Assembly (NCBI RefSeq): GCF_007483665.1
Contig: NZ_VIQO01000012.1
Coordinates: 186,001-250,000 of the forward strand
Direction of reading: 5' to 3'
DNA length: 64,000 bases
Origin: Catellatospora sichuanensis
Lineage (GTDB): Bacteria; Actinomycetota; Actinomycetes; Mycobacteriales; Micromonosporaceae
The first letter of the stretch is position 1. Each line of letters begins with the position of its first letter. The notes beneath the pieces were generated by a model. It saw nothing but the letters and a program-made list of their open reading frames with translations, did not search any database and was not told the origin of the DNA. A program made the position numbers and the translations under genes. Positions 23,299-58,731 of this stretch are shown piece after piece.

Positions 23299-24130
23299 GC
23301 GCTTTCACTCGGTTCGGGTATCGGCCTCGAGCACGGTGAGGTCGCGCACCGCGTACCGGTGATGCTCGGCCTCTTCCTTGAACACGACGCTGAGGCAGCG
23401 GCGTACGACGTAGTCCTTGTCCGGGTAGGGGTCGGCCGGCTTGCGACCACATACCCGGTCGAGCTCGGCCTCGGTGAGCTCGTCGACGACCCGGCGCATC
23501 GTGGCCATGCGGGCGAGCCGCGGCGCGAGTACCTCGTCGAGCGTCGGGGTGGCATCGAGGGTGAGCCCGAGGAGCTTCGCCAATGCTTCGGCCGGCATCC
23601 CGCCGCCAGGAAGGCCCAACGAGTGGTGCGGCGCATCCTCCTCGAGCACGGCGTTGCCGATCCAGGCATCACTGGCCATCAGCAGATGCCGCTGCGTCTC
23701 GACGAACGACCACTCGCCGTCGACCTGCTCGTTCAGCTTCGCCTCGGGTAGGCGCCTGGCACGGTCGAGCGTCTCCTCCCACTGCTTCTCGATGGCATCC
23801 CAAGCAGCCCGGTATTCGGCGGCGGACGTGGCCTCACGGGCCAGCACCCGGTTGGGATGCAACCGGTCGAGCTCGGCCTCGACATAGGCGGTCACGTCGA
23901 CGTCATTGACAACGACACGCTCGAAGCCGCCACCGAGGGAGACGTTACCCCCATAGCAGTCCACAATCTTCAGGCCGGTGACGTCGCAATCGCGAATCTC
24001 GAGACCAGAGAGATCGCACAGATGGATGCGGGCACCACGGAACTGGTCACCTTGGGTGTACTCAGCAGGCATCGGGACAGTTTCCCGTATCCATCCCGCC
24101 CCCGCAAGTGAATGGCACAACGTGAGGGTT
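23299..24130. repeat. 832-bp direct repeat, left copy
   Basis: Bases 23299-24130 match 57900-58731 at a constant offset of 34601 with only two substitutions that I could find (a g/a near 23390 and a g/a near 24099). Both copies lie in the same orientation. Left boundary: a transposase fragment here, an IS remnant at the right copy. Right boundary: the A-domain gene here, a promoter region at the right copy. No terminal inverted repeats or transposase lie within the repeat. Confidence 0.9.
23305..24072 (-). CDS. DinB-family protein with short pentapeptide-like N-terminus (copy 1)
   Basis: The 255-residue product starts MPAEYTQGDQFRGARIHL and carries a few pentapeptide-type turns (LSGLEIRDCDVTGLKIVDC) in the first 50 residues. 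A DinB_2-like four-helix domain follows, with WSFVETQRHLLMASDAWI and a C-terminal EEAEHHRYAVRDL histidine pair. DinB-like proteins are often metal-dependent thiol-transferases (mycothiol-dependent in actinomycetes); activity here is inferred only from fold. It lies entirely within the repeated 832-bp unit and is duplicated at 57906-58673. The ATG at 24072 is followed by perfect homology in both copies. Confidence 0.7.
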   Translation of the reverse strand: MPAEYTQGDQFRGARIHLCDLSGLEIRDCDVTGLKIVDCYGGNVSLGGGFERVVVNDVDVTAYVEAELDRLHPNRVLAREATSAAEYRAAWDAIEKQWEETLDRARRLPEAKLNEQVDGEWSFVETQRHLLMASDAWIGNAVLEEDAPHHSLGLPGGGMPAEALAKLLGLTLDATPTLDEVLAPRLARMATMRRVVDELTEAELDRVCGRKPADPYPDKDYVVRRCLSVVFKEEAEHHRYAVRDLTVLEADTRTE

Positions 24131-25684
24131 GCGTACTGCGTCCGGGTGGGAGAGTGCGGGATCGAGCATCTTGGCGAGCGCTCGACGATCGATCTTGCCC
24201 GCGCGGTTGAGAGGCATCTCGTCCAGCCAGACGTAGACGCGTGGAATCATCGGCGCGGGTAGCCAACTACCCAGTTGGCTCGTGAGCAGCTCGTCGGGTC
24301 GCCGTTCGCCGACCAGATAGGCGACGATGGCCGCGCCGCCCGGGGTGTCCTCGCGCAACAGTGCCGCCGCGTCGACCACGCCTCGGCATGCGCGCAGGTT
24401 GTGCTCCACCTCGCCGATCTCGACCCGGTACCCACTGATCTTGATCTGGTCGTCGATTCGGCCGACGTACACGTAGTTCCCGTCCGGCTGAAGCCGAACG
24501 TTGTCCCCGGTGGCGTACATGCGCTCGCCGGGCCTCTCGGCGAACGGGTCCGGGAGGAACGAGGCCGCCGTGCGGCCGGGACGGCCGAGATAGCCTCTGG
24601 CAAGACCGGCACCGGCCAGGTACATCTGGCCGGTGTCGCCGGCCGGGACGGGGTTCAGCTCCTCGTCGAGGACATAGGTTCGCACGTTGCGGATCGGGCG
24701 CCCGATGGGGACCCACTGCGGGGTCGAGGCGTCGCAGGGATACCACGTCGCGGCCACCGAGGCCTCGGTCGGGCCGTAGCCGTTGTGGACGACCAGCGAG
24801 TCGTTGCTGCCCAGGTCCGGCCCGTCGAGTTGGGACCCGCCGGTGATGACCAGGCGCACGCCGGCCGCGGCCAGCCGGGGAAGCAGGGACGTCCCGTACG
24901 GCCCGAGCACCGCGGCCGGGACTTCCAGCGCGGTCACGCCGAGCGCGCGGACGGTGCGCAGGATGCGGTTGGCGGGCAGGTCGCCGCCGTCGGCGATGGC
25001 GACGCAGGCGCCGAAGCAGAGCGGCATCAGGCAGTCGTGCATGGTGCTGTCCACGGTGAGCGCGGTCGTCCACAGCATCACGTCGTCGGTCCTGATCAGG
25101 TCGATGTCCTCGAACGAGGCGATGATCAGGTTCAGGAGGCCTTCGTGCGGCACGCCGACGATCTTGGGCCGCCCGGTCGAGCCCGACGTGGTGAGCGCGT
25201 ATGCCAGGTCGAGCGGCCTCGGCGAGGGGAGCTCCGTGGCGGCGGGGCTGTCGGGGCTGTCGTGGCCCGTCTGCGGGCCGGTTACGTCAATGAGCTGGGC
25301 GTCGGGCAGCCAGTCGACCGGCGCGGTAGCAAGGACGCGTCCGCAGCCGACGTCGTCGAGCACCCCGCGATTGCGCAGCGGCGGATCGTCGGGGTTCATC
25401 GGCAGACACGCCGCGCCGCTTCGCAGGATGGCGACGATGCCGATCAACGCGGCCGGGCATTGCCGCGCGATGAGACCGACGATCGGTCCGGCGTCGTCGG
25501 CCACCAGCCGCCGCGCAAGTCGCGCCGACAGCCGATCGAGCTCGGCATAGGTCCACGAGCGTGCCGAGGTCCGGATGGCCGTGGCCGCCGGCCGGTCGCG
25601 AAACTGGCGCTCCAGGAGATCGACCAGGGTCCGTGCACCCGCGGTCCGGGCCGACCGTCGAGAATCCTGCACCGCAAGTACCAC
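24062..25684 (-). CDS. Stand-alone NRPS adenylation domain with repeat-derived tail
   Basis: The 540-residue protein is one adenylation domain: A3 [11 protein letters not shown]4 region LTVDSTMHDC, A5 NGYGPTEASV, A7 YATGD, A8 GRIDDQIKISGYRVEIGEVE and A10 NRAGKIDRR with the catalytic lysine at residue 497. It would activate an amino or aryl acid as AMP ester for a separate carrier. By hand alignment the specificity positions read about D-S-H-E-I-G-G-V-A-K, which I cannot match to a known code. Residues 519-540 come from the 832-bp repeat, so the native 3' end, possibly with a carrier domain, was replaced. It lies 7 bases downstream of the large NRPS gene. Confidence 0.85.
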   Translation of the reverse strand: MVLAVQDSRRSARTAGARTLVDLLERQFRDRPAATAIRTSARSWTYAELDRLSARLARRLVADDAGPIVGLIARQCPAALIGIVAILRSGAACLPMNPDDPPLRNRGVLDDVGCGRVLATAPVDWLPDAQLIDVTGPQTGHDSPDSPAATELPSPRPLDLAYALTTSGSTGRPKIVGVPHEGLLNLIIASFEDIDLIRTDDVMLWTTALTVDSTMHDCLMPLCFGACVAIADGGDLPANRILRTVRALGVTALEVPAAVLGPYGTSLLPRLAAAGVRLVITGGSQLDGPDLGSNDSLVVHNGYGPTEASVAATWYPCDASTPQWVPIGRPIRNVRTYVLDEELNPVPAGDTGQMYLAGAGLARGYLGRPGRTAASFLPDPFAERPGERMYATGDNVRLQPDGNYVYVGRIDDQIKISGYRVEIGEVEHNLRACRGVVDAAALLREDTPGGAAIVAYLVGERRPDELLTSQLGSWLPAPMIPRVYVWLDEMPLNRAGKIDRRALAKMLDPALSHPDAVRNPHVVPFTCGGGMDTGNCPDAC

Positions 25685-25691
25685 CTATCGA

Positions 25692-28600
25692 CTAAGTTTG
25701 GTCGCCCAGCGACCAGCGGATCGCATCGGGGAGCATCGACTCCCACGCCGCGTAGGTGTGGCCGCCTTCCCCGATCGCGCTTCGTACGACATGTCCGTCG
25801 GCCGCGAGCTCGACGGCTGTGCGTTCGGTCGCTTCCACCAAGCTGAGTCCGTCGTCGAGGACGATGTCCTTCTCCTCCCGGCTCGCGGACAGGAAGAACC
25901 GCGACCCGCCTCTCGACCGGTCGGGCCTCGCCGGGCCGAGCCGATGTTCGCTCAGCGGGCCGGAGATGGCCACGGCGCCGTGGAAGCGATCCGGCCGGCG
26001 CAGCGCGGAGCGGATCGCCGTGACCGCCCCCAGACTCGCGCCCACCGCGACGGCTCGGCCGACCGGCCGGTTCCCGAGCCAGGTGCGCAGGTAGGGGAGC
26101 AGCTCGTCGGCGAGCGCGTCGACGATCCCGTCGTCGAGGAGCTCGCTGCGGCGGGTCGACCATTCGCTCGGACTCAGGAATATCGCCGCGGTGGTGGGGA
26201 TCCGATCCTGCAGGGAGAGCCGGTCCAGAATCGCCGGCAGGCGCATGATCTCCACGAACTCGGAGCCGTCGAGGACGAGCAGCAACGGGAGGTCGGCATT
26301 CTTCCGGAGCGGGTTCTCGGTGGAGATGAACAGATCCACGCGTCGGCACCCGGCGAGCTTCTCGCCGCGCCAGGTTCGCTGGACGAGCCGGTCCTCACGC
26401 GAGGCCGCGCTGAGGTCGGGCAGGCTCTCACGCAGGATCGCGGCCGCGTAGCTCGCAGGCGTCCGATATTCCAGCATCAGCTGCAACGGCACCTCGCGGC
26501 CGAGTTCGCGGCGGACCGTCGCGGTCGCGCGCGGCACCAGCAGGGAGTGCCCGCCCTGGTCGAAGAAGTCGTCGGAGGCCGAAAGCGGCCTGCCGAGCAC
26601 GGCGGACCATGCCGCGACGACCCGTGCTTCGAGCCCGGTCGCGGGCGGCAGGTCCACTCCGGCGCGCGTGGTGGCGGTGGTGACCGGTGGCAGCGCGGCG
26701 CGGTCGAGCTTGTTGTGCGCGGTCAGGGTGAATCGGGGGATCGTGACGAAGTGGTCCGGGCGCATGTACGCGGGCAGTGTTTCGCGGAGCATGTCGCGCA
26801 GCGCCCCCACGTCCACCGACCTGGCCGCCACGATGTAGGCGACCAGCGCGGGGCCGGTCGCCAGGGTGGCCCGGACGACCGCCGCCGCGGTGATGTCGGG
26901 ATGGCGCAGCAGGGCGTGTTCGACCTCGCTGGTCTCGATCCGGAAGCCACGGATCTTGACCTGGTGGTCGGTGCGGCCGAGGAAGTCGATGGCTCCGTTC
27001 GGCAGGTAGCGGCCCAGGTCTCCGGTGCGGTACATCCGCGACCCGGGCGGCCCGAACGGATCGGGAACAAACGACGCCGCGGTCAGGCCGGGGCGGGAAT
27101 GGTACCCCCTGGCCAATCCGTCGCCAGCCAGGAAGATCTCGCCGCGCATGCCGACCGAGACCGGCTGGAGGTCCTCGTCGAGGATGTAGGCACTCGTGTG
27201 CGGGATGGGGCGGCCGATCGGAACTCTGCCCGACCACGGCCCGCCTTCGAACACGGTGGCCAGCACCGTGCACTCGGTCGGTCCGTACGACGCCACGACC
27301 CGGCAGCCGGGTAGGAGTCCCTCCACCAGGGCGAAGCTCCTCGGGTTGACAACGTCGCCGCCGACGACGAGCTGGCGCAGCCCGGACAGGATGTGCGGAT
27401 CCTGCTCGACGAGGATGTCGAGCTGCGGAGAGACCAGCTTGAGCGTGGTGACCTGGTGTTCGCGCAGGACATCCCGCAGACCGTCGAGGAGGGACCCGGG
27501 ATCGGCGACCACCACCCGGCCGCCGTGGGCCAGCGGCGCCCATTCGAGCACGGCGACATCGAATGTCAGCGGACCGGTCTGGAGAAACACCGACCCCGGG
27601 CCTACCTCGAGATAGTGCGGTGCGCCTTCCACCAGTCGGCTCAGGGCTCGATGTGAGATCGCCACCGACTTGGGGTTTCCGGTCGATCCGGATGTCGATA
27701 TCAGGTAGGCCAGACTGTCCGGAGCCGGGAGAGTCGGAAGATTGTCGGTGGCGTATCCGGTCAGGTCCGGGCTGCCGTCACCGATGGTGAGAACCGGCGT
27801 CTCCATCGAGGGCAGGCGGGCCAGAAGCGGTGAGCCGACGATCATCAAGACGGCGGCGGCATCCGACATCAGGAGGCGGATCCGATCGGCTGGGAAGTCG
27901 GGGTCGACGGGCAGGTACGGTGCGCCACATTTGGCCAGCGCGAGCAGCACCACGAATCGTTCGACGGTGCGTTCCAGGCAGACGCCGACCACCTTCTCCG
28001 GTCCGACGCCCAGGGTTAGCAGGTGTCGGGCCAGCCGGTTCGCGCGTTCGTTCAGCTGCCCATAGGACAGCGGGCCGCCGTCGCCGACCACCGCCGGCGC
28101 GTCCGGCGTGCGGGCGGCCAGGGTCTGCAGACGTTCGACAACGGTGGTCCCGGCCGCCGGAGTCCGATCGTTGCCGCGCCGCAGCAGCGTGCGGTCGGCC
28201 CGGGTGAGCAGGTCGAAGTCGCGCATCAGCGCGTCCGGCGTCGCCACGCCCTGTTCGAGCGTGCGGATGTAGCGGTCCGCGAGCGTGGCGATCGTGGCCC
28301 GGTTGAACAGCGCGGTCGGGTACACGAAGGTCGCCCGCAGCCGCCCCTCAACGATCCGCGTGGTGAGCGAGAGGTCGAACCTGGCAGTCACCGGCAGGTC
28401 GGGTTCCCACCACACCGGCGCGTCTGGATCCTCGGCCAGGTCATCCCGGTCGCCGGCGTGATTCACGACGACGTCGAAGATCGGATTCCGGTGCGCCTCC
28501 GACCCGGCTTTGAGCGCACCCACGATCTGCTCGAGCCGCGCGTCCTGGTGCGCGTCCGCGGCCATCCAGGCGTCCCGGGTTCGGGTGATCGCCTCGCGAA

Positions 28601-29561: not shown

Positions 29562-29569
29562 ACTCGTGC

Positions 29570-29827: not shown

Positions 29828-29829
29828 TG

Positions 29830-31401: not shown

Positions 31402-31412
31402 TCAGCGCGTGA

Positions 31413-34733: not shown

Positions 34734-34915
34734 TCGACGACCCAGAGGGCCGATTCCTGGTGCTCGTCAACGACGAGGAGCAGCACTCGCTGTGGCCGAG
34801 CCGCCGGGCGGTACCCGCCGGCTGGCGGATCGTGTACGGCGAGGACAGCCGGCAGGCGTGTCTGGACTACGTCGAGCAGCACTGGACCGACCTGCGTCCG
34901 CTAAGCGTGCGCTGA
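34724..34915 (+). CDS. MbtH-like NRPS chaperone
   Basis: A 63-residue protein with the complete MbtH signature: [39 protein letters not shown] and [14 protein letters not shown]. The conserved tryptophans and the NxExQxSLWP core are intact. MbtH proteins bind adenylation domains and are often needed for their folding or activity. The start at 34724 is chosen for its GGAGG site and the family N-terminus; ATG 34691 would add 11 residues from a local duplication. It immediately precedes the TubC-docked NRPS, its most likely partner. Confidence 0.92.
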
Positions 34916-39734: not shown

Positions 39735-40490
39735 TCACTCGGCGGGCGTGCGCAGGAAGCCCAGGCGGCGTACCTCCTCCACGCCGCCGGCCAGCGGGAC
39801 CGGATCGCCGCCGCGCGACAGGGCGGCGAGGAACTCCCGGCGCGGCATTGGCCCGGCATTGAGCCGCCGACTCTGCTCGCTGTCCCACTCGACGTCCAGC
39901 AGCGTCACGCCGGTGCCGGCCAGCCGGCACTCCATGTCGAGCAGCGCCACCTTCGAGGCGTTGGTCTGCCGGTGGAAGCAGGTGTCCAGGGTGAATACCG
40001 TGCCGACGCCGATACCGACGGCCCCCCCTACCATCTCGTCGCCGTCCCAGACCTCGACGCTGTGGGCCCAACCCAGCTTGTGCAGCTCCACCATGCACTC
40101 GCACAGCTCGTCGGTGAGCCACTCGGGAGTGCGGTTCGCGCGGCACTCGGCGAGCACCCGGTCGAAGCGCTGGTTCGCGGTGGTGGTCCAGCGCAGCCGG
40201 TTGCGCAACAGCTTCATCAGGCTGCGTGGCTTGGTGAGCCGCCCGTACGGGATGACCGGGCGCGGGTCCGGTGACCACCAGGTCAACGCGAACGGATCGG
40301 GGAGCGGCGAGTCGAGCACCGCGGTCGTCCCGGCCGCCACCGAATCCTCGTACAGGAAGTGGTTCACCTCGGCCGCGGCCGCGGATACCGCCGGCATCGG
40401 GAAGGCGCCGTGCCGGTAGCCGGCGAGGACGGTCGCCGGGTCGAGGCGGCCACCGATCGCGGCCGGCGCGTCGCCCGGGGCACTATCCAT
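39735..40490 (-). CDS. Leucyl/phenylalanyl-tRNA-protein transferase homologue (Aat family)
   Basis: A 251-residue protein clearly of the Aat family: AGYRHGAFPMP, LTWWSPDPRPVIP, KPRSLMKLLRNRLRWTTTANQRFDRVL, LHKLGWAHSVEVWDGDEMVGGAVGI, FHRQTNASKVALL and MPRREFL. Aat normally moves Leu or Phe from tRNA to protein N-termini in the N-end rule pathway. Aligned to the E. coli enzyme, the Asp of its catalytic relay is kept (Asp199), but the Gln two residues later is Glu201. In this cluster it may transfer an aminoacyl group from tRNA to a small-molecule amine; that is inference. Two broken copies of the gene lie near 57.2-57.6 and 60.3 kb. It is divergent from the thioesterase gene. Confidence 0.8.
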   Translation of the reverse strand: MDSAPGDAPAAIGGRLDPATVLAGYRHGAFPMPAVSAAAAEVNHFLYEDSVAAGTTAVLDSPLPDPFALTWWSPDPRPVIPYGRLTKPRSLMKLLRNRLRWTTTANQRFDRVLAECRANRTPEWLTDELCECMVELHKLGWAHSVEVWDGDEMVGGAVGIGVGTVFTLDTCFHRQTNASKVALLDMECRLAGTGVTLLDVEWDSEQSRRLNAGPMPRREFLAALSRGGDPVPLAGGVEEVRRLGFLRTPAE

Positions 40491-40571
40491 CGCAAGACCG
40501 TCCCACACGCATCCCTCGCAGCGAAACACATGTCGATTCTGGCCTCCGACCACCGACCGACGGGACCCCTC

Positions 40572-41363
40572 ATGACCGCATCCTCGACAGAGAGCACCTT
40601 CGAGGCATCGGCGCGGTGGCTGCGCCGGCCGCGTCCCTGCCACGACCCGGCGAGCCGTCTGGTCTGTCTGCCGCACGCCGGCGGCACCGCCAGCGCGTAC
40701 GCTTCCTGGGCCGCCCGGCTGCCGGCCCGGATCGAGCTGATCGCCGTGCAGTACCCCGGCCGGCAGGACCGGCTGGCCGAGCCCTGCGCGCGGTCCGTCC
40801 AGGAGATCGCCGACGCGCTCGTTGCGGCGCTGGCCGCCTACACCGACCGGCCGCTGTACCTGTTCGGGCACAGCATGGGCGGCCTGGTCGCCTACGAGGT
40901 CGCGGCCCAACTGGAGGCCGGCGCCGGGCCGGGTCCGGCGGGCCTGTTCGTCTCCGGCACGCTCGCCCCGCACCGGTTCCTGCCGCCCCGGGAGGTGCTC
41001 GACAACGCGATCATCGAGGCGGAGACCCGGGCGTCCGGCTGGACCGATCCGATGGTGTTCGAGCACCCGGAGCTGCGCGAGCTCGTGCTGCCGGCGCTGC
41101 TGGCCGACTTCCGGGCGGTGCTGTCCTACCGCCACCGCGATCCGGCGCGGCTGCGTTGCCCGATCGTCGCCTACGCGGGCAGCGACGGTCCCGCCGACGT
41201 GCCGGACCAGCTGGCCTCCTGGGGCGAGCTGACCTCCGGCCCGGCCGCCTGGCGGCGCTTCGACGGCGATCACTTCTACCTCCAGCCCCGGGAGGCCGAG
41301 CTGGTTGCCGACATCCTGACCCGGATGTCTAACTGGGGAAGCGCCTCAGTTGGACGCCTATGA
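40572..41363 (+). CDS. Type II thioesterase
   Basis: A 263-residue alpha/beta hydrolase: LVCLPHAGGTASAY near the N-terminus, AVQYPGRQDRL, the nucleophile elbow YLFGHSMGGLVAYEVA and FDGDHFYL with the catalytic histidine. Type II thioesterases remove wrong or misprimed groups from NRPS carrier proteins. ATG 40572 gives the usual length; an in-frame ATG at 40530 would add 14 residues, and neither has a strong ribosome binding site. The stop overlaps the next ATG at 41360. It is the first plus-strand gene after the divergent Aat/StrR pair. Confidence 0.88.
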   Translation: MTASSTESTFEASARWLRRPRPCHDPASRLVCLPHAGGTASAYASWAARLPARIELIAVQYPGRQDRLAEPCARSVQEIADALVAALAAYTDRPLYLFGHSMGGLVAYEVAAQLEAGAGPGPAGLFVSGTLAPHRFLPPREVLDNAIIEAETRASGWTDPMVFEHPELRELVLPALLADFRAVLSYRHRDPARLRCPIVAYAGSDGPADVPDQLASWGELTSGPAAWRRFDGDHFYLQPREAELVADILTRMSNWGSASVGRL

Positions 41364-44306: not shown

Positions 44307-44990
44307 ATGATCCGCACCGACATTCTCGTCAATTCACCCATCTTCCTCATCGGCCTGGTCGACACGCTGACCAAGGCCGGCATCAAAGTCGTCGCCAGGC
44401 GAACCTCGCCCACAGTGGACGCGTCCTGCCTCGCGGATGCAGCTGTGATCGACGTTGACGCGCTTCGGATACCCGACGACCTGACGCATATCACCGAGGT
44501 GGCCAAAAGCGCGGCGGTCCTGGTCCTCAGCAACTCGGACTGCATCGAGGCCGAGATGTACCTGCGCGCCGGAGCGTTGGGGGTCGTGAGCAAACTGGAG
44601 TCCTGCGAGGGCATCATCGGCGCGATCCGGGCGGTGACGTCCGGAAGCCGCGTCTGGCCGGCCGAGTCCGGTGGCGAGCCCACCGCGCTGCACGCCGACA
44701 CATCGGGCTACCACCTGTCCGAGCGCGAGGAGCAGGTGCTGCGGCAGATCTCCCGTGGCCTGACCCACGGTCAGATCGCCACCCGGTTGTGCATCAGCCC
44801 GCATACGGTCGACACCTATGTCAAGCGCATCCGGGCCAAGCTCGGCGTTGGCAACAAGGCGGAACTCACCCGGGCTGCGCTGCTCGGCCGACCTGCCGCC
44901 GAGAGCCGAGACACCCGGTTGCCCAAACAACGAGACACCCGGTTGCCCAAACAATCGGAGACCGCGTCGCTCATCAGGGAGGTTGCATGA
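44307..44990 (+). CDS. NarL/LuxR-family response regulator
   Basis: A 227-residue regulator. Residues 1-115 form a receiver-like domain (ILVNSPIFLIGLVDTL, AAVIDVDALRIP, AAVLVLSNS, GALGVVSKLES). The acidic pocket is incomplete, so phosphorylation is uncertain. Residues about 140-200 form the LuxR helix-turn-helix: LSEREEQVLRQISRGLTHGQIATRLCISPHTVDTYVKRIRAKLG. Similar regulators control lipopeptide clusters in actinomycetes. The C-terminal tail contains two exact copies of RDTRLPKQ. The ATG has GGGGGCGAAAC upstream. It likely controls the right arm beginning at 45158. Confidence 0.85.
   Translation: MIRTDILVNSPIFLIGLVDTLTKAGIKVVARRTSPTVDASCLADAAVIDVDALRIPDDLTHITEVAKSAAVLVLSNSDCIEAEMYLRAGALGVVSKLESCEGIIGAIRAVTSGSRVWPAESGGEPTALHADTSGYHLSEREEQVLRQISRGLTHGQIATRLCISPHTVDTYVKRIRAKLGVGNKAELTRAALLGRPAAESRDTRLPKQRDTRLPKQSETASLIREVA
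44907..44954 (+). repeat. Perfect 24-base tandem duplication in the LuxR gene
   Basis: The 24-base unit at 44907-44930 is repeated exactly at 44931-44954, in frame, adding a second RDTRLPKQ to the tail of the regulator. Perfect identity suggests a recent slippage or duplication event. Confidence 0.9.
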
Positions 44991-45157: not shown

Positions 45158-46087
45158 GTGGCTGAAAGCGTTGTCCAAAAGGTGACCCAGGGTCTGACGG
45201 CCGAACAAGTCCAGTTCTTCACGGAGAACGGGTTCATCGGCCCCTTCGACCTCTACTCCGAGGAAGAGGCTCCGCTGGTCTGGAGCCAGGCCATGATCGA
45301 TATGGTCACGTCCGAGAACAAGCCGCACAACTCGACCAAAATCAACTACGACCGCCATCTCGACTGTGAAGCGCTGTCCCGGCATATCGCCCACCCGGCG
45401 ATCGTCCACAAGCTGCAGAGCCTCATGGGCGACGACATCATGTGCTGGAAGACGAACATCTTCGAGAAGGAGCCCGGCGACTCGGGAACGGGCTGGCACC
45501 AGGTCGAGGCATTCACTATATACGACGAGGCGGAAACCGTCTCGTATCCCTCACTGCGCTACACCGAGGAGTCCACGGCCGCCACGCAGGAGCTAACCGT
45601 CTGGGCGGCCTTCTCCGAGGCGGACAAGGAGCACGGCTGCCTACGCTTCCTGCCCGGCAGCCACAAACAGTGGTACTACGACGAGTCGAAGCCGATGACG
45701 TACAACGTCGAGAGCAAGGCCCACGACTTCTTCGGCTACGACTACTCAGAGCTCAAGCTCGACAAGGACTGGGATCCGAACAGTCACGAGATCGTCGACA
45801 TGGAGTTGAAGCCCGGCCAGTTCGTCATCTTCCTGGCCAAGTGCGTCCACGGCTCGCACCCCAACACGAGTGCCACCAGGCGCGTGGGGTTGGCGTCGCG
45901 TTACGTCTCGCCGTCCGTGCGGGTCTACGAGCACATCGACCGTCTCAGCGGGTTCGGCGACTCGATCGACCTCGACTACCACGGATGCGTCATGGTCTCC
46001 GGCGAGGACAAGTACGGGCACAACCGGATGTACCGGGAGAACCTCAACGGCTTCCCCTTCCCGAAGGTCGAGTCCGATGGCCACTGA
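45158..46087 (+). CDS. SyrB2-like nonheme Fe(II)/2-oxoglutarate enzyme (putative halogenase)
   Basis: The 309-residue protein is close to the SyrB2/CytC3 family of carrier-dependent aliphatic halogenases: TGWHQVEAF, ITVWTAF-like LTVWAAFSEADKEHGCLRFLPGSHK, FFGYDYSELKLDKDW, PGQFVIFLAKCVHGSHPN and VGLASRYVSPSVRVYE. His114 and His231 are the expected iron ligands and Arg248 the oxoglutarate anchor. At the position of the third ligand (Asp/Glu in hydroxylases, Ala or Gly in halogenases) it has Val116, so a halide site is possible but not proven. It would act on an aminoacyl group held by the carrier encoded next. GTG 45158 has a strong GAGGAGGG site. Confidence 0.8.
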   Translation: MAESVVQKVTQGLTAEQVQFFTENGFIGPFDLYSEEEAPLVWSQAMIDMVTSENKPHNSTKINYDRHLDCEALSRHIAHPAIVHKLQSLMGDDIMCWKTNIFEKEPGDSGTGWHQVEAFTIYDEAETVSYPSLRYTEESTAATQELTVWAAFSEADKEHGCLRFLPGSHKQWYYDESKPMTYNVESKAHDFFGYDYSELKLDKDWDPNSHEIVDMELKPGQFVIFLAKCVHGSHPNTSATRRVGLASRYVSPSVRVYEHIDRLSGFGDSIDLDYHGCVMVSGEDKYGHNRMYRENLNGFPFPKVESDGH

Positions 46088-46358
46088 CGACTACCGGCAG
46101 AGGTTCGCCGAGATCCTCGCGACTCAACCTTTCGGCGACGGTCTCACCTACGAGCAGGTCGTCCGGGCGCGGTCGCGGCAGGAACTGGGCATCAGCTCGC
46201 TGAACATGATCATCGTGCTGATGAACTACATCAAGAAGTACACGGACGGCACCATCACCGTCCGCCCGGAATGGGTCTCCCGGCTCAACGACATCGACGG
46301 CATCGTCTCCGTACTCCGAGAGATCGATGCGATCGGCGTCGAACCGGCTCGGTCCTGA
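46077..46358 (+). CDS. Stand-alone carrier protein partner of the halogenase-like enzyme
   Basis: A 93-residue carrier: FAEILATQPF, then ELGISSLNMIIVLMNYIKKY, where the second serine of ISSL fits the phosphopantetheine site, then DGTITVRPEWVSRLNDIDGIVSVLREI. It is an unusual, short carrier close to those working with KAS III-like transferases. The ATG at 46077 overlaps the end of the halogenase-like gene by 11 bases, so the pair is made together. The loading enzyme is probably the A domain at 47341 or the free A domain at 24062. Confidence 0.75.
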   Translation: MATDDYRQRFAEILATQPFGDGLTYEQVVRARSRQELGISSLNMIIVLMNYIKKYTDGTITVRPEWVSRLNDIDGIVSVLREIDAIGVEPARS

Positions 46359-46414
46359 CGTCGCCACCTCGCCGGGCCCGGCAATTCCCGACCCTCTGCC
46401 GATCGAAGGGAACC

Positions 46415-47344
46415 ATGATCTCGGATCACGAAGACATCGGCATCGGCTCGTTCGCGTGCGCCTTCGGCGATGTGGAATGCAAGCCGGAGAACATCCCTGA
46501 TTTCGGCGCCCTCTGGGAGACCGTGTCGTTCGGCACCGACTTCCGTGAGATGGGATGTACGACGTACCGGAAAATGTCCGGGCCGGTCGAAGACTATGTC
46601 GTGGACGCCGTGCGCCGAACCCTCCGGGACGCCGGCGTCGCCGCCGCGGACATCGACCACCTTGTGTTCGCGACCAGCGACCCGACCTTGGCTCTGTTGC
46701 CGTCCGACTTCGCGAGCCGAGTGCTACTCGCCTTGGGAATGAACGACTGCGTCCCTCATGTCATGTCCTATCAGCGGTGCTGCAGCTCGCTGACCGCGCT
46801 TCGGCACGGTCAGCGGCTGTTGGCCGATCCGGAGGCGACCCACGTGGTGGTCGTCGCCGTGGACTTCGTGCCGCACGACCGCGACCGGGTGCTCCCCTAC
46901 GCGATGTTCGGTGACGCGGCCGCGAGCTGCCTGCTGTCCCGCCGGCCGGGACTCGTGCGGCTGGTCTCGTCCGCGGTGAAGATCGACCCGGAGGGATTGC
47001 GCGGCCGCGACACGTTCGTCTCGCGCAAGGATGTCGCCGAACGGACGCTGTCCGCGGTGCTCCGGGCCGGCGGCCGGCAGCAGGCACAGATATCCAAGGT
47101 GTTCGCGGCCAACCTGCACAAGCCGCTGACGCTATTCAACGCGACATCCGTCGGTCTGCGCCCGGACACCCTGCACTTCGCCGACACGCTCGCCGCCTAC
47201 GGACACTGTGGAAACGCCGATTGGATGATCAACCTGGCCGATTTCCACGAGCGGTTCGGCATTCAGCCCGGACAGACGTATCTGGCGCAGTCCCTGGCGC
47301 CGGGGTTCTACGCCTGCGGACTCTTCGAAGGAAGCGCGCAGTGA
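46415..47344 (+). CDS. KAS III-like (FabH/CerJ-type) acyltransferase or condensing enzyme
   Basis: A 309-residue thiolase-fold protein: DHLVFATSDPTLALLPSDFASRV, SYQRCCSSLTALRHGQRLL with active-site Cys122 or Cys123, VVVVAVDF, PYAMFGDAAASCLLS and the C-terminal AYGHCGNADWMIN. FabH uses Cys-His-Asn; here the HQAN box reads FAAN and the GNTS box reads GHCGN, so the mechanism differs from a normal beta-ketoacyl synthase. CerJ-like members transfer acyl groups. It may move the processed acyl group off the neighbouring carrier. The ATG at 46415 follows CGAAGGG. Confidence 0.75.
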   Translation: MISDHEDIGIGSFACAFGDVECKPENIPDFGALWETVSFGTDFREMGCTTYRKMSGPVEDYVVDAVRRTLRDAGVAAADIDHLVFATSDPTLALLPSDFASRVLLALGMNDCVPHVMSYQRCCSSLTALRHGQRLLADPEATHVVVVAVDFVPHDRDRVLPYAMFGDAAASCLLSRRPGLVRLVSSAVKIDPEGLRGRDTFVSRKDVAERTLSAVLRAGGRQQAQISKVFAANLHKPLTLFNATSVGLRPDTLHFADTLAAYGHCGNADWMINLADFHERFGIQPGQTYLAQSLAPGFYACGLFEGSAQ

Positions 47345-49743: not shown

Positions 49744-49808
49744 CGCGGAGAAGCTCGCTCAAACGGCGCCTCGATCCGGAGAACCTTTCCGGTAAAACTT
49801 CAACATCG

Positions 49809-49825
49809 ATCCGGGTTGGCCGGAT
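49809..49825 (+). promoter_or_regulatory. Perfect hairpin abutting a ribosome binding site
   Basis: ATCCGG (49809-49814), a 5-base loop and CCGGAT (49820-49825) form a perfect stem directly before the GAAGGAAA ribosome binding site of the LLM oxidoreductase gene. It could modulate translation or mark the end of the upstream transcript. Confidence 0.3.
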
Positions 49826-49837
49826 GAAGGAAAACAC

Positions 49838-50728: not shown

Positions 50729-50803
50729 CCTGCGTACCGAACTGGGAGTCGCCTAGCGTATCGGGAGAGCCCCAAATTCGGCTGAGAGGGATTGCGTGAT
50801 CCG

Positions 50804-51667: not shown

Positions 51668-51726
51668 CCGCGCGAGCCGCCGGCTGCCCGAGAAATGCGG
51701 AACTCCTCCGAAGACAGGAGAGAACC

Positions 51727-52272: not shown

Positions 52273-53254
52273 GGCACCGGCGGTCGTCACCACCCTCCCG
52301 TCCGGCGCGGAATGGGAGTTCGGCGGTCATCCCTACGGGCTTGAGCCGCTGGCCCTGCCCTCCCGATGGGTACCCCGAACAGTGTCCGTGGACCCGATGC
52401 GGATCGAGGAACTGCGGGAACGGCTGGCGCACGCGTCACCCGCCTCGGTCCACGACCTGCGTCCGGACAGTGCCGAGGACATCGACCGCCTGTTCTGGTT
52501 CCGGTGGATCACCGCCCACCAGACCACCTTCCTGCTGTGGCAGATGCTCGGGGCCATCCTGCGGGAGAGCGAGGCCGCGCGGGTCGAACACGAGGAGCTC
52601 GCCACGCAGGCGCGATTGCTGGTGTGCGGCTATTCGCTGATGCTGATGTACGGAAGCTCCGCCCCCCGGCACATCTACGGACCCGTCATCCGGATGCCGA
52701 TGGCCCGCCAGCACGTCAATCTCACCGGCGCCTGGGCCCGCGACTATGCACCGGTCCGGCCGCTGATCCGGGGCAAGGTGACGATCGGCTCCGGCACCGT
52801 GGCGGAAGCCCTGCGCCACGAGTGCGAACTCAACGAGCAGGTTCACGAGGGGATCGCGGACAAGGTCCTGTCCTCGGGCGAGGTGTCCTTGCTGCAGAGT
52901 CCCAAGCCGAAGGGCCGACAGCAGATCCCCCGGGACACCTTGATGTGGCTGTACGACGGCATCTTCCTGACCAGCCGTGCGGCCGTCTCCCAGCTCGCTG
53001 TCGGCAGCCAGCTGGTCCGCCGACTGCACGCCATCTTTCTCGACATCACCGCTAACGGCCTGTACCCCTCCTTCGCGCCGAGCGCGCATGAGGAACCGCC
53101 CCGTCTGCGGAACCCGGAGGTGATGCGACGCAAGGCGGGACTGACGGACTGCGTCCTGGAGATCCTGAGCTTCGTAGGCGCGCCGGCTACCCAGGCCCAC
53201 CCATCGAGAACGGTCCGGACCAGCTCCACGGTGCGAAAGTTGAGGACTACATGA
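52250..53254 (+). CDS. Heme-dependent aromatic oxygenase-like protein (TDO/LmbB2 tyrosine hydroxylase type)
   Basis: A 334-residue, mostly helical protein. FWFRWITAHQTTFLLWQMLGAIL resembles the helix of tryptophan 2,3-dioxygenase that carries the distal histidine. The later HVNLTGAWARDYAPVRPLIRGK resembles the heme-dependent tyrosine 3-hydroxylases of lincomycin and anthramycin pathways, as far as I remember those sequences. If correct it would hydroxylate an aromatic amino acid. The assignment is tentative. The ATG at 52250 overlaps the VOC gene, and the stop overlaps the methyltransferase ATG. Confidence 0.45.
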   Translation: MPPMHPLEAPAVVTTLPSGAEWEFGGHPYGLEPLALPSRWVPRTVSVDPMRIEELRERLAHASPASVHDLRPDSAEDIDRLFWFRWITAHQTTFLLWQMLGAILRESEAARVEHEELATQARLLVCGYSLMLMYGSSAPRHIYGPVIRMPMARQHVNLTGAWARDYAPVRPLIRGKVTIGSGTVAEALRHECELNEQVHEGIADKVLSSGEVSLLQSPKPKGRQQIPRDTLMWLYDGIFLTSRAAVSQLAVGSQLVRRLHAIFLDITANGLYPSFAPSAHEEPPRLRNPEVMRRKAGLTDCVLEILSFVGAPATQAHPSRTVRTSSTVRKLRTT

Positions 53255-54264
53255 CCGCCGCGACAACCCATCTGCCCAAGGAAGCGCGATACTGTGCGGA
53301 TACCTTCAACGGTGCCGTGGCCGCAGCCGCTCTCAGCGCGGCCTGGGACATCGGCTTGTTGGACGAGCTCGCCGACCGGGACGCTGTCGACGTACCCGAG
53401 TTCACCGCCCGCACCCGCACCCACCCGGAGGCGGTTCGCCGGATCCTTGTCGCGCTGTCCAGCCGCAGGATCGTGGTCGTCGACGCCGGGCCGAACCTGG
53501 CCCGGCGCGGACCGGGATTCGACGAGGCGTTCCGTACCAGGGGCTTCTTCTACTGGCTGACCAGGGGCTGTGGCGAGCTCTTCACCGATCTCACCACCCT
53601 GGTTCGCACCGATGAACGCGGCGACCGCCAGATGCGCCGCGATTCGCGGGCGATCAGCGTGGCCTGCCGGAGCATCGCCCGCAATTTCTTCGACCCGCCG
53701 CTGCGGGATCTCCTCGACGGTATCGACTACACGACCGTCGCCGATCTCGGCTGCGGCAGCGGCGATCGGATCATCATGTTGGCCGAGCGGCGACCCGCGA
53801 TCCGGGCCATCGGGGTCGATATCGCCCCGGGGGCGTTGACGGTCGCGGGAGAGGCGGTCCGGGATGCGAACCTGACGGACCGGATCACGCTGCTTCGGGA
53901 TGATGTGCTGAACATGTCGCCGAGGCCGGAGTACGCCGACGTCGAACTGGTCACCTGCTTCCTCATGGGGCACGACTTCTGGCCACGGGACAACTGCGTG
54001 AAGACACTGCAGAAGCTCCGAGAGACCTTCCCCAACGGACGAAACCTCCTCCTCGGCGACACCTGTCGGTCCGTCGGCGTCGAAGGCCCGGACCTGCCCA
54101 TGTTCACGCTCGGCTTCGAGACCGTGCACGCGATCATGGACCAGTACCTGCCCACGCTCGACGAGTGGTACTCGGTGATCGATGAGAGCGGCTGGCGCCT
54201 CGCTGATCAGCGGCTCATCGAACTTCCCGCGTTCAGCTTCATCTTCCACCTGACCCCAGCCTGA
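53251..54264 (+). CDS. MppJ-like SAM-dependent methyltransferase (possible alpha-keto acid C-methyltransferase)
   Basis: A 337-residue O-methyltransferase-fold protein with an N-terminal dimerisation/winged-helix domain, then TTVADLGCGSGDRIIML as motif I and IGVDIAPGAL. It closely recalls MppJ, the phenylpyruvate C3-methyltransferase of mannopeptimycin biosynthesis, which holds a catalytic iron with two histidines. Here His241 (LMGHDFWPRD) and His293 (FETVHAIM) have the same 52-residue spacing that I recall for MppJ. A beta-methylated aromatic or branched amino acid precursor is therefore plausible, with the aminotransferase at 43 kb completing it. It is coupled to the preceding gene by ATGA. 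Confidence 0.7.
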   Translation: MTAATTHLPKEARYCADTFNGAVAAAALSAAWDIGLLDELADRDAVDVPEFTARTRTHPEAVRRILVALSSRRIVVVDAGPNLARRGPGFDEAFRTRGFFYWLTRGCGELFTDLTTLVRTDERGDRQMRRDSRAISVACRSIARNFFDPPLRDLLDGIDYTTVADLGCGSGDRIIMLAERRPAIRAIGVDIAPGALTVAGEAVRDANLTDRITLLRDDVLNMSPRPEYADVELVTCFLMGHDFWPRDNCVKTLQKLRETFPNGRNLLLGDTCRSVGVEGPDLPMFTLGFETVHAIMDQYLPTLDEWYSVIDESGWRLADQRLIELPAFSFIFHLTPA

Positions 54265-54310
54265 TCCGTCATCGACGCGGCCGGCGCGGCCGTACCCGGA
54301 GGAACACCCC

Positions 54311-54706
54311 ATGGACGCACCTTCCACAGCCGCCGCCCCGGCCGCCCGAATGGATCTTCCGCTGTTTCGCGAGATTCCCGGACATCACGCACCCACACCG
54401 TTCTACCTGACCGACGACATGTACGGCGGGCTGTGCTTGGAGCTGGCCGGCGGCGAGCTCAGCGACAAGGTGGGAAAGCCGGTGGCCGATCCGCATACCC
54501 ACGAGTGTCCCGAGATCTATCTGCTGCTGTCACCGAATCCGGGCGGTGGCGTGATCGAGGTGGTCGCCGACGGACGCCACCACACGCTGACCTCGCCGGC
54601 GACATTCTTCATCCCGGCCGGTACGGTGCACCACTTCGTCACCCGCAAGGCCGAACCGGGCACGTATTGTCTGGGCCTGCTGCTCACCGGGTCAACCCAA
54701 CGATGA
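54311..54706 (+). CDS. Cupin-domain protein
   Basis: A 131-residue single-domain cupin with motif 1 DPHTHECPEIYLLL (His62, His64, Glu68) and motif 2 FFIPAGTVHHF, giving the usual three-His, one-Glu metal site. Such proteins are isomerases, epimerases or dioxygenases; the reaction cannot be told. The ATG at 54311 follows GGAGGAACACC. Its stop overlaps the gamma-glutamyltransferase start. Confidence 0.75.
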   Translation: MDAPSTAAAPAARMDLPLFREIPGHHAPTPFYLTDDMYGGLCLELAGGELSDKVGKPVADPHTHECPEIYLLLSPNPGGGVIEVVADGRHHTLTSPATFFIPAGTVHHFVTRKAEPGTYCLGLLLTGSTQR

Positions 54707-56508
54707 CCGTCCTGCGACCCCAGCTCACCGGTACCTCCGGCGCCGTGGCCTCGACGCATTGGTTAGCGTCCGCCGTCGGCATGGGCATCCTCGACCGGGG
54801 TGGCAACGCCTTCGACGCGGCGGCGGCCGCCGGCTTCGCCCTCCAGGTGATCGAGCCGCACTCGAACGGGCCCGGCGGCGACGTCGTGATCTCGGTCTAC
54901 CCGCGCTCGGCCGGCACGGTACGCGTCATCTGCGGACAGGGCCCGATGCCGCAGGCGGCGACCATCGAGCGGTTCGGCGCGCTCGGCATCGAGCAGATGC
55001 CCGCGGCGGGCCTGCTCCCCGCGACCGTGCCGGGCGCGTTCGGCGCCTGGATGCGCCTGCTCGCCGAGTTCGGCACGATGCCACTGGCCACCGTCCTGGA
55101 ACCGGCGATCGGGTACGCCTCCGGCGGCTACCCGCTGCTGCCCGGCGCCGCGGCGACGGTCGCGGCGATGGCTCCGCTGTTCCGGACGGAGTGGACCGCG
55201 TCCGCGCGCACCTACCTGCCCGACGACGCGGTACCGGCGGCCGGCGCCCGGATGCGCAACGCCGCGCTGGCCGGCACCTACGAGCGGCTGCTGCGCGAGG
55301 CGCGGGCCGCGTCGACCGACCGGGAGGCCCAGCTCGAGGCGGCCCGGGCGGCCTTCTACGAGGGCTTCGTCGCCGACGCGATCGACGGCTTCGCGCGTAC
55401 CACCGAGGTGCTCGACTCCACCGGCGGCCGGCACCGCGGCCTGCTCACCGGCGACGACCTGGCGGCCTGGCAGCCTGCCGTCGAGGAACCGTGCGCGCTG
55501 CCGTACGGCGACTTCACCGTCTACAAGCCGGGGCCGTGGTCGCAGGGCCCGGTCTTCCTCCAGCAGCTGGCGATCCTGTCCGGCTGCGACCTGCGCAGCA
55601 TGGGGCTCGGCACCGTCGACTACGTCCACACCCTCGCGGAGGCGGCTAAGCTCGCGTTCGCCGACCGCGAGGCCTGGTACGGGGACCCGGCGCACACACC
55701 GGTGCCGATGGCCGAGCTCCTGGCGCCGGAGTACACCGCGCGGCGGCGCTCGCTGATCGGCGACCGTGCGGCCCTCGACCCCCAACCCGGCCGGGTGGGC
55801 CCCGGCCAGCCCTGGATCCCGCAGGCCAAACCGGAGCAGCCGGGCGCCGACGAGCCGGACTGGATGACCCAGCTGCGCAGCGGCATACCCACCGTGACCG
55901 CCGGTGCGCCGCAGGCCGGTGCCGGGAACACCTGCACCGTCGCGGTCGCGGACCGGTGGGGGAACCTGGCCGTGGCCGTGCCCAGCGGCGGCTGGCTCAA
56001 GAGCTCACCGGTGATCCCCGATCTCGGCTTCCCGCTCGGCACCCGCGGCCAGACCGCCTGGCTCGTCGACGGCCACCCGAACTCGCTGGCGCCCGGCCGG
56101 CGTCCGCGCACGACGCTGAGCCCCAGTATCGTGCTGCGCGACGGCGAGCCGTTTCTGGCGTTCGGCACGCCGGGCGGTGACCAGCAGGACCAGTGGACGC
56201 TCCAGGTGTTCCTCGCGATCGCGGAGTTCGGGCTGGAACCGCAGGCCGCGACCGAGCTCCCCGCCGTCAACATCGACCACTTCGCGCAGTCGTTCGCGCC
56301 GCGCGCCTCCCGGCCGGGCGTGCTGGTCGCGGAACGCTCGCTCGGGCCCGAGGTGCTCGCCGGCCTGGAGCGGAAGGGCCACCGGCTCGACGTGGTGCCG
56401 GCGTCCACCCTCGGCAAGGTCTGCGCCGCCGGTGTCGACCCGGATACCGGCTTCCTTCGGGCCGCGACCGGCCCGCGCGGCCGCCAGGCCTACGGAGTGT
56501 GTCGGTAG
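54703..56508 (+). CDS. Gamma-glutamyltransferase family protein
   Basis: A 601-residue Ntn-hydrolase precursor: ASTHWLASAVGMGILDRGGNAFDAAAAAGFALQVIEPHSNGPGGD at the start of the large subunit, and GAGNTCTVAVADRWGNLAVAV, where the Thr after Asn is the expected autocleavage site and nucleophile. RPRTTLSPSIVLRDGEPFLAFGTPGGD follows in the small subunit. No signal peptide is present, so it is cytoplasmic. It could remove or add a gamma-glutamyl group on a pathway intermediate, or hydrolyse another amide. The start overlaps the cupin stop. Confidence 0.82.
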   Translation: MTVLRPQLTGTSGAVASTHWLASAVGMGILDRGGNAFDAAAAAGFALQVIEPHSNGPGGDVVISVYPRSAGTVRVICGQGPMPQAATIERFGALGIEQMPAAGLLPATVPGAFGAWMRLLAEFGTMPLATVLEPAIGYASGGYPLLPGAAATVAAMAPLFRTEWTASARTYLPDDAVPAAGARMRNAALAGTYERLLREARAASTDREAQLEAARAAFYEGFVADAIDGFARTTEVLDSTGGRHRGLLTGDDLAAWQPAVEEPCALPYGDFTVYKPGPWSQGPVFLQQLAILSGCDLRSMGLGTVDYVHTLAEAAKLAFADREAWYGDPAHTPVPMAELLAPEYTARRRSLIGDRAALDPQPGRVGPGQPWIPQAKPEQPGADEPDWMTQLRSGIPTVTAGAPQAGAGNTCTVAVADRWGNLAVAVPSGGWLKSSPVIPDLGFPLGTRGQTAWLVDGHPNSLAPGRRPRTTLSPSIVLRDGEPFLAFGTPGGDQQDQWTLQVFLAIAEFGLEPQAATELPAVNIDHFAQSFAPRASRPGVLVAERSLGPEVLAGLERKGHRLDVVPASTLGKVCAAGVDPDTGFLRAATGPRGRQAYGVCR

Positions 56509-56510
56509 CC

Positions 56511-57194
56511 ATGTTCGTACCGAGCCACTACCGGATCAAGGACGAGGACTGGCACCGCCGGATCATCGACGGCCACCCCCTCGCGACGCTCACCACGAAC
56601 GGGACGACCGCTCCCCTGGCCACCCGCCTGCCGGCCCTGGTCGCGCCGGGTGAACCCGAGTCCGGCCCGCTGGCCGGCACCGAGATCCTCGGCCACCTCA
56701 ACCGCGCCAACCCGCACTGGAAGGCGCTCACGGACGGCACGTACGCCCGGCTGATGTTCGACGGGCCGGGCGGCTTCGTCACGCCGGCCGTCTACCCCGG
56801 CGACCCGTCCGCGCCGACGTGGAACTTCGCGGCCGTGCACGTCTGCGGCCGCCTCCGGTTGATCCGCGGGCGGGAGGAGACACTCGAGGTCGTCCGGTGG
56901 ACGGCCGCTCGCCTGGAGGATCGCTTCGGCGCGGGCTGGGACCAGACCTCCTCGGTCGACTACTTCCGCCGGATCGTGCACGGCGTCGGTGCCTTCCGGC
57001 TGACGATCGAGTCGGTGGAGGCGCTGTTCAAACTCAGCCAGGAGAAGCCGGCGGACGTGCAGGAGTCGGTGATCCGCCGCTACGAGGCGGATCCCAGCGG
57101 CGCCGGCTGGCCGATCGCCCGGCTGATGCGGGAGGCCGGGATGGGCGGCTCCGCCGGATCGCCGGACGAGACCGTGTCCTCCTGCCCCTTCTGA
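56511..57194 (+). CDS. PaiB-like FMN-binding protein
   Basis: A 227-residue flavin-reductase/PNPOx-fold protein of the PaiB family: MFVPSHYRIKDEDWHRRIIDGHPLATLTT, HLNRANPHWKAL, PTWNFAAVHVCGRLRLI and the typical C-terminal FKLSQEKPADVQESVI. PaiB was named as a repressor in Bacillus; most homologues bind flavin or heme and their role is unclear. The ATG at 56511 lies two bases after the upstream stop, so it is in the same operon. It is the last intact gene before the rearranged zone. Confidence 0.78.
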   Translation: MFVPSHYRIKDEDWHRRIIDGHPLATLTTNGTTAPLATRLPALVAPGEPESGPLAGTEILGHLNRANPHWKALTDGTYARLMFDGPGGFVTPAVYPGDPSAPTWNFAAVHVCGRLRLIRGREETLEVVRWTAARLEDRFGAGWDQTSSVDYFRRIVHGVGAFRLTIESVEALFKLSQEKPADVQESVIRRYEADPSGAGWPIARLMREAGMGGSAGSPDETVSSCPF

Positions 57195-57218
57195 CCTGCC
57201 CCACCGCACAAGATACCG

Positions 57219-57599
57219 ATGATCCAACAACGAAGGCCGCAACGAGGGGGGCCGCTCGACTCGCCGCTACCCGATCCGTACGCGTTGACCTGGTGGTCGC
57301 CGGACCCACGACCAGTCATCCCCCATGGGCGGTTGACCAAGCCGCGCACCCTGATGAGGCTGTTGCGCAACCGGCTGCCGTCGAAGGTGGCGCTGCTGGA
57401 CATCGAGCACCGGCTGGCCGGCACCGGTGTGACGCTGGACGTCGAGTGGGACAGCGGGCAGAGCCAGCGGCTCGGTGCCGCGCCGGAACCGCGCCGCGAG
57501 TTCCTCGCCACCCTCACCCGCGGAGGTGATCCGGTCCCGCTGGCCGGTGGCGTGGAGGAGGTACGCCGCCTGGGATTCCTGCGAGCCGTTGGGCCCTAA
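57219..57599 (+). pseudogene. Aat-family pseudogene with internal deletion
   Basis: This 126-codon frame matches the Aat homologue at 39735-40490 in two blocks: LDSPLPDPYALTWWSPDPRP through LLRNRL, and SKVALLDIEHRLAGTGVT through RRLGFLRAV. The segment equal to residues of about 100-178 of the intact protein, with the catalytic glutamate and substrate pocket, is missing, as is the N-terminal 58 residues. One codon is also lost in TLLDVEW. It is a dead partial copy, on the opposite strand to the intact gene. Confidence 0.8.
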
Positions 57600-57790
57600 C
57601 AGGACCGCATCTCAGTTGATTTGGGGTTGAGCCGGTCGGCTTGCCGACAACAGATCAGAGCGGATGCCAGGCGCAGGAATCCGGTGTAGTGGGAAGCGGC
57701 GGGCCAGCCGACGGAACCGGCTGACCCACTCCAGGCAGCGTTCGATGGGATGTGGTTCGCTGTTTGCGCGGCGTGGCACTCACCGAGTAG
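57596..57790 (-). mobile_element. Decayed IS5-family transposase C-terminal remnant
   Basis: On the minus strand one frame reads HPIERCLEWVSRFRRLARRF, and the next frame continues HYTGFLRLASALICCRQADRL to a stop at 57596. Together they are the end of an IS5-type transposase with one frameshift near 57700. No 5' part or terminal repeat is visible. It adjoins the right 832-bp repeat, as the left repeat adjoins another transposase fragment. Confidence 0.6.
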
Positions 57791-57899
57791 TTGGCCGTGT
57801 TCCTGGCAGGTGTGGCAGACGACCAGAATCTTGCGGCCGGGAGTAGCAGCAGCACTGCGGCTGGAAGTCGCCCGACCGGTCAGCGCTCCTGCTCGGTGG

Positions 57900-58731
57900 G
57901 CGCTTTCACTCGGTTCGGGTATCGGCCTCGAGCACGGTGAGGTCGCGCACCGCGTACCGGTGATGCTCGGCCTCTTCCTTGAACACGACACTGAGGCAGC
58001 GGCGTACGACGTAGTCCTTGTCCGGGTAGGGGTCGGCCGGCTTGCGACCACATACCCGGTCGAGCTCGGCCTCGGTGAGCTCGTCGACGACCCGGCGCAT
58101 CGTGGCCATGCGGGCGAGCCGCGGCGCGAGTACCTCGTCGAGCGTCGGGGTGGCATCGAGGGTGAGCCCGAGGAGCTTCGCCAATGCTTCGGCCGGCATC
58201 CCGCCGCCAGGAAGGCCCAACGAGTGGTGCGGCGCATCCTCCTCGAGCACGGCGTTGCCGATCCAGGCATCACTGGCCATCAGCAGATGCCGCTGCGTCT
58301 CGACGAACGACCACTCGCCGTCGACCTGCTCGTTCAGCTTCGCCTCGGGTAGGCGCCTGGCACGGTCGAGCGTCTCCTCCCACTGCTTCTCGATGGCATC
58401 CCAAGCAGCCCGGTATTCGGCGGCGGACGTGGCCTCACGGGCCAGCACCCGGTTGGGATGCAACCGGTCGAGCTCGGCCTCGACATAGGCGGTCACGTCG
58501 ACGTCATTGACAACGACACGCTCGAAGCCGCCACCGAGGGAGACGTTACCCCCATAGCAGTCCACAATCTTCAGGCCGGTGACGTCGCAATCGCGAATCT
58601 CGAGACCAGAGAGATCGCACAGATGGATGCGGGCACCACGGAACTGGTCACCTTGGGTGTACTCAGCAGGCATCGGGACAGTTTCCCGTATCCATCCCAC
58701 CCCCGCAAGTGAATGGCACAACGTGAGGGTT
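57900..58731. repeat. 832-bp direct repeat, right copy
   Basis: The right copy of the 832-bp unit, same orientation and 34601 bases from the left copy, with two substitutions seen. It carries the whole DinB-family gene and about 58 bases of its upstream region. Flanks differ completely from those of the left copy on both sides, so the unit boundaries are sharp. Confidence 0.9.
57906..58673 (-). CDS. DinB-family protein (copy 2)
   Basis: A 255-residue protein with the same sequence as the product of 23305-24072; the coding substitution I found is silent. Its upstream region differs from copy 1 beyond the repeat edge at 58731, so the two copies have different promoters. Function as for copy 1: a DinB_2-like fold with a conserved EEAEHHRYA helix, possibly thiol-transferase-like. 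The 314-base gap 58674-58987 upstream contains the repeat edge and promoter-like elements only. Confidence 0.7.
   Translation of the reverse strand: MPAEYTQGDQFRGARIHLCDLSGLEIRDCDVTGLKIVDCYGGNVSLGGGFERVVVNDVDVTAYVEAELDRLHPNRVLAREATSAAEYRAAWDAIEKQWEETLDRARRLPEAKLNEQVDGEWSFVETQRHLLMASDAWIGNAVLEEDAPHHSLGLPGGGMPAEALAKLLGLTLDATPTLDEVLAPRLARMATMRRVVDELTEAELDRVCGRKPADPYPDKDYVVRRCLSVVFKEEAEHHRYAVRDLTVLEADTRTE

Follow-up and report, generated by a model that had tools for sequence, protein, structure and literature searches.

Two DinB_2-family genes in an actinobacterial peptide synthetase cluster, probably homogenised by recombination across 34.6 kb

The 64,000-nucleotide stretch of Catellatospora sichuanensis DNA analysed here (NCBI RefSeq assembly GCF_007483665.1, contig NZ_VIQO01000012.1, positions 186,001 to 250,000; hereafter the window) contains part of a nonribosomal peptide synthetase (NRPS) gene cluster and two near-identical copies of a DinB_2-family gene. 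In this report, we found that these two genes are very likely homologues of separate origin that have been made identical, or nearly so, by homologous recombination with each other, and more than once. The first copy (c1), accompanied by a YjbR-family gene, would mark the left boundary of an NRPS cluster that has spread horizontally, and the second (c2) would lie inside a 3.6-kb insertion in that cluster. They are direct repeats of 832 bp each, with a start-to-start distance of 34,601 bp:

23299-24130, minus strand: repeat copy 1 (c1), with a DinB_2-family gene (open reading frame 23305-24120), on the left margin of the foreign block
57900-58731, minus strand: repeat copy 2 (c2), with the same DinB_2-family gene as c1, within the cluster block

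An initial annotation, made from the sequence alone, had described near-identical 832-bp direct repeats bracketing about 34.6 kb and differing at two positions, and alignment bears this out. There are exactly two mismatches, c1 having G and c2 having A at both (23389/57990 and 24098/58699), and the encoded proteins differ by one residue. The length and identity of the copies exclude a chance likeness. A DNA search of the organism's own draft genome (9.45 Mb, 65 contigs) listed no third copy of the repeat, and the remaining 10 genomes of the genus gave weak, short DNA matches only.

Pairing of the copies by genome

Actinomadura rudentiformis (G316) has the same cluster, also with both copies. 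Over a 688-bp core, c1 and c2 agree at 687 of 688 positions in the window genome and at 685 of 688 in A. rudentiformis; between the genomes, agreement is 652 to 656 of 688. The four DinB copies share 36 variable core sites with two letters, of which 32 pair the copies by genome, none by position and none crosswise, the other four being single. A pair of PhyH-family regions in the same clusters serves as the control:

45158-46087, plus strand: PhyH-family gene of the chlorinating-enzyme subfamily (TIGR01762, above cut-off)
59011-60281, plus strand: broken duplicate of the PhyH/chlorinase-type region 45181-46470, which serves as an internal control and was not homogenised

The matching pieces of these two PhyH regions are 87-97% alike, and the non-haem-iron chlorinase-type gene and its broken copy have kept separate histories in three genomes. 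Their variable sites divide into three by genome, 52 by position, two crosswise and 40 single; when G166, a single-contig genome, replaces A. rudentiformis, the counts are 5, 40, 1 and 79, respectively. The pairing patterns of DinB and PhyH thus differ (Fisher p about 1e-20). A tree of 65 rows joins the two DinB copies of each genome (100/99 and 100/100), and an approximately unbiased test rejects the position-wise pairs, which were chosen after the data were seen, with p values of 5e-49 and 1e-46. Further, the flanks of c1 and of c2 stay orthologous between the two genomes while the copies themselves are alike within each genome. Because the DinB copies pair by genome and not by position, unlike the PhyH regions, they were homogenised separately in two lineages. 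That recombination across 34.6 kb has occurred is well supported by these sequence comparisons.

An error of assembly, in which one consensus was put into both places, could also yield identical copies. The window genome is a draft, and the A. rudentiformis assembly has a contig end at the repeat: contig C10 stops where c1 begins on the left, and contig C18, which overlaps it, continues into the YjbR gene. Such an artefact is nonetheless most improbable, for the same arrangement and the same pattern recur in this separately assembled genome, and each pair keeps its own differences. Moreover, single-contig genomes show each context on its own, namely that of c1 (YjbR, DinB, adenylation gene) in G257 and that of c2 in G166.

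Mixed ancestry of c2 and the case for conversion

The surroundings of c2 differ in ancestry from its core. The relevant features are:

57203-60831: c2 block, an insertion; related clusters in G111 and G131 have just 65 and 117 bp here
57836-57899: flank downstream of the c2 DinB gene, of another DinB lineage (identical to L071 at 64/64 positions and to L043 at 62/64)
58732-58790: upstream flank of the c2 DinB gene, resembling that of L043 (49/52 columns)

The short intervals in G111 and G131 show that the c2 block, 3.6 kb in length, is an insertion. Among the best matches listed for 354 genomes of the window family and the matches listed for 341 of the G316 family (one genome per species, with the best two candidate places per genome scored), the block is present in the window genome, G166 and G316 only. 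G166 has c2 and no listed match to the YjbR side of c1.

Whereas the flanks of c2 are nearly those of the other lineage, its core agrees with L071 at 597 of 675 columns (88.4%) and with L043 at 722 of 829. This contrast between flank and core has a Fisher p of 0.001 for L071 and 0.0001 for L043, gaps being left out of the count. In the native genes L043, L044 and L040, conservation is lower in the flanks than in the core, and slowly evolving flanks are therefore not the cause of the contrast. The two DinB lineages can be told apart at 39 sites, and there the c2 core carries the c1-lineage letter 35 times in the window genome and 33 times each in A. rudentiformis and G166. In addition, three bases at the left end of the A. 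rudentiformis c2 are c1-type where the window genome and G166 share others, which points to c1 as the donor. Thus, c2 retains flanks of its own lineage (stretches of 64 and 52 columns) around a replaced core, and the borders fall at the ends of homology. It is probable that c1-type sequence replaced an older DinB homologue at c2 as far as those ends. As the core in G166 is of the c1 lineage even though this genome has c2 only, the first replacement is probably older than the divergence of the three carriers.

In its simplest form, the process would be a gene conversion from c1 to c2 that extends to the ends of the shared sequence, such that the 832-bp length would simply be the extent of homology between the two genes. 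The ordinary RecA-type machinery would be the likely agent. Transposition of an 832-bp unit was considered and is disfavoured; there is no transposase inside the repeat, and DinB-native flanks surround c2. Another possibility is that c2 was formed anew in each lineage, c1 having been copied separately into the same spot. The near-identity of the copies within each genome would follow from this, and the right-hand ends of c2 do differ among the three carriers. Such copying is very unlikely, however, given that c2 occupies the same spot, beside the same left-hand neighbours, in three genomes, that DinB-native flanks lie around it, and that G166 holds c2 without c1.

Several observations weigh against mutual homogenisation or complicate it. 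Both copies are present in two genomes only, and from two informative genomes neither the date nor the rate of homogenisation is derivable. The flank evidence consists of 64 and 52 columns only. The 156 bp that are missing from the 5' part of the gene in A. rudentiformis c1 were not removed as a difference by conversion. Four genomes (L023, which is G300, Nonomuraea sediminis; G303; G315; G317) each keep one DinB match at 93-94% and another at 82-86%, and the two DinB genes of L023 fall in different clades of the tree; co-residence alone therefore does not homogenise such genes. Lastly, the DinB core is 5% divergent between the two genomes, and the adjoining sequence about 1% (993/1001 to the right of c1 and 303/306 to the left of c2); divergence is 3% to the right of c2 (968/1000) and 2% in the YjbR gene (11 of 497). 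Since conversion within a genome cannot raise divergence between genomes, one lineage seems to have taken up a DinB allele from outside, either ahead of the conversion events or between them.

The left edge and the fate of the enclosed interval

The neighbourhood of c1 includes the following features:

22308-22706, plus strand: YjbR-family gene, partner of c1-type DinB genes in other genomes
22759-23289, minus strand: IS5-type transposase fragment, absent from the same place in A. rudentiformis
24062-25684, minus strand: adenylation-domain gene, whose open frame ends within c1 and whose 3' end adjoins c1 on the right

The c1-type left side is found in 23 other genomes, with DinB genes that are 93-96% identical. 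This number was reached from 50 rows by removing those of the window itself (2), A. rudentiformis (3) and G166 (2), as well as L034, its duplicate L093 and L077 (no c1-type left mark), and rows judged from identical values to be duplicates of the same genome. In 16 of the 23 loci, DinB is followed by a stub from the 3' end of the adenylation gene; L083 is interrupted by a contig end, and L077, from the same metagenome-assembled genome, has the stub, which would make the count 17 of 23. The stubs end at varying points, with BLAST ends ranging from about 24145 to 24767, each possibly off by some bases. Those to the right of YjbR and DinB (L048, L025, L026, L091 and others), present in many genomes that lack the cluster, derive from one adenylation gene, measure up to about 640 bp and are up to 99% identical to the window. 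In N. sediminis, the two DinB genes (8758-9597 and 10001-10810 of L023) lie about 0.4 kb apart in opposite orientation; they belong to different lineages and are still different.

We read the stubs as relics of cluster loss, as if many losses had occurred at different points, although a stub may merely have travelled together with YjbR and DinB. Cluster DNA was sought in 24 genomes (28 entries, four of which have values identical to those of another entry), and a match of at least 96% over most of the query was found in G316 and G166 only. G305 has a 70% match to part of the cluster query, elsewhere in its genome.

Deletion between direct repeats is known in bacteria. The geometry of c1 and c2 is the same and would allow deletion of the intervening unit, and the present case differs in that no deletion product was seen. 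Were c1 and c2 to cross over, the 34.6-kb unit would be deleted or duplicated, an event that is possible and was not observed; the predicted deletion product would read YjbR, DinB and then position 58732 onward. None of the 23 relic loci with a c1-type left side has the c2-type right side (L083 ends at a contig end), and no such junction occurs among the matches listed for the 354 and 341 genomes. The genomes compared may never have had c2, each species is represented by a single genome, and two candidate places per genome were scored; the absence of a junction is therefore weak evidence that says little on rate. Of the two parts of the proposal in the initial annotation, then, recombination between the copies is well supported by the likeness within genomes, the orthologous flanks and the mixed ancestry of c2; loss or amplification of the 34.6-kb unit is possible, and nothing was found in its support.

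These results also bear on how the copies were made alike. By unequal crossing over, the unit between them could duplicate in tandem and then collapse, and repeated cycles would homogenise the repeats. This route would likewise leave the copies alike within each genome, and direct repeats of this size are much longer than recombination requires. We nevertheless think it unlikely: no deletion or duplication junction was found in the relic loci or among the listed matches, and for c2 to exchange its entire core yet keep its flanks, crossovers close to both ends of the repeat would be required, whereas a single conversion event would do. Conversion, and not transient duplication and collapse, thus remains our preferred account. 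The more ambitious notion that the DinB pair is a working hinge, whose reversible duplication and collapse would act as a copy-number switch for most of the NRPS cluster and would homogenise the copies in at least two unrelated hosts, is in our estimation doubtful.

The cluster block and its genomic setting

The interval between the repeats is only part of a larger shared unit:

24143-64000: part of the cluster block within the window; A. rudentiformis about 97%, G166 about 96%; runs on to about 78957

In extended coordinates (the window numbering carried on past position 64000), the block common to A. rudentiformis (mostly 96-98%) and G166 (mostly 95-97%) spans about 24143 to about 78957, or some 55 kb. 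The DNA between the repeats (24131-57899) amounts to about 62% of it. The block codes for NRPS modules, two ATP-binding cassette (ABC) transporters, desaturases, a haem-oxygenase-like protein and a Lys/Orn-type N-monooxygenase with an FMN_bind_2 part. The initial annotation had placed most biosynthetic genes, both regulators and the MbtH gene between the repeats. An MbtH-like motif is indeed found near 34769, and one LuxR-type regulator at 44307-44990. No second regulator was identified, and two NRPS genes, the two ABC transporters and the N-monooxygenase lie in the block outside the bracketed interval.

Relative to the genus member G005, the inserted DNA amounts to about 72.7 kb, the counterpart of 94680 standing 12 bp after that of 21923. 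In another member, G002, 21930 is joined to 98290 instead, and the right edge of the insertion is therefore less certain. No tRNA was given by ARAGORN in the five loci scanned, insertion edges included, and a tRNA-borne island was rejected. A plasmid origin was likewise rejected; 117 plasmid records matched, none with 80% query cover, and the best 20 of the 117 covered at most 17% of the query, mostly at NRPS or YjbR genes.

Cargo bracketed by direct repeats, with an IS5-type fragment beside c1, might suggest a composite transposon with the copies as its ends, or a circle that integrated by a single crossover in DinB and left them as scars. We find this scarcely credible. The repeat holds a DinB_2 gene and codes for no transposase; the DNA beyond c2 is still cluster, common to two other genomes to about 78957, and not host chromosome; and the island edges against G005 (21923 and 94680) do not coincide with c1 and c2. 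Transposase debris had been reported at both copies. At c1 it is present, although the alignment shows that the insertion-sequence-type DNA stops about 30 bp before the repeat; at c2 it had been seen by eye only, and the frame tested gave no significant Pfam match. A role for such pieces is unsupported, as A. rudentiformis has different sequence in place of the IS5-type fragment, which is thus not needed for the repeat.

Other genes of the block merit brief description. The NRPS cluster includes a Leu/Phe-tRNA protein transferase-like gene at 39735-40400 on the minus strand (domain match in the open reading frame 39735-41273), and a fragment of it stands beside c2:

57254-57583, plus strand: Leu/Phe-tRNA transferase-like gene fragment, an inverted copy of part of 39751-40317

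This fragment is mostly missing in A. rudentiformis. The N-monooxygenase with its FMN_bind_2 part is at extended coordinates 73608-75539 (L021:13608-15539), and a separate FMN_bind_2 gene is at 56193-57194; these may resemble piperazate enzymes.

Concerted evolution by internal recombination has been described in polyketide synthase (PKS)/NRPS clusters, in which copies from one cluster resemble each other more closely than they resemble the corresponding copies of related clusters; gene conversion is favoured as the cause (PMC4256081). Likewise, c1 and c2 are more alike within a genome than same-position copies are between genomes. The copies described there are synthase domains, whereas an accessory DinB gene is concerned here, once at the cluster edge and once in an insertion, and c2 has a mixed ancestry with exact borders. 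In Streptomyces, a cluster between the sites RsA and RsB undergoes ZouA-dependent tandem amplification (PMC4573296). There, too, two recombination sites in direct order enclose a unit the size of a cluster; in that system the sites are oriT-like and are acted on by a relaxase, and amplification was observed, whereas the present sites are long homologous repeats at which none was observed (a relaxase was not sought). No published account of this DinB pair was found among the literature matches listed. The pair is thus a new case of a known process.

The sequence comparisons reveal recombination between two sites of a biosynthetic cluster that are separated by 34.6 kb, and do so in two hosts that apparently belong to different families. 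They also carry two warnings: direct repeats that are nearly identical may be old homologues that became alike, and not a recent duplication, and the interval between such repeats need be neither the cluster nor a mobile unit. With a defined pair of sites in hand, the stability of the cluster can be studied.

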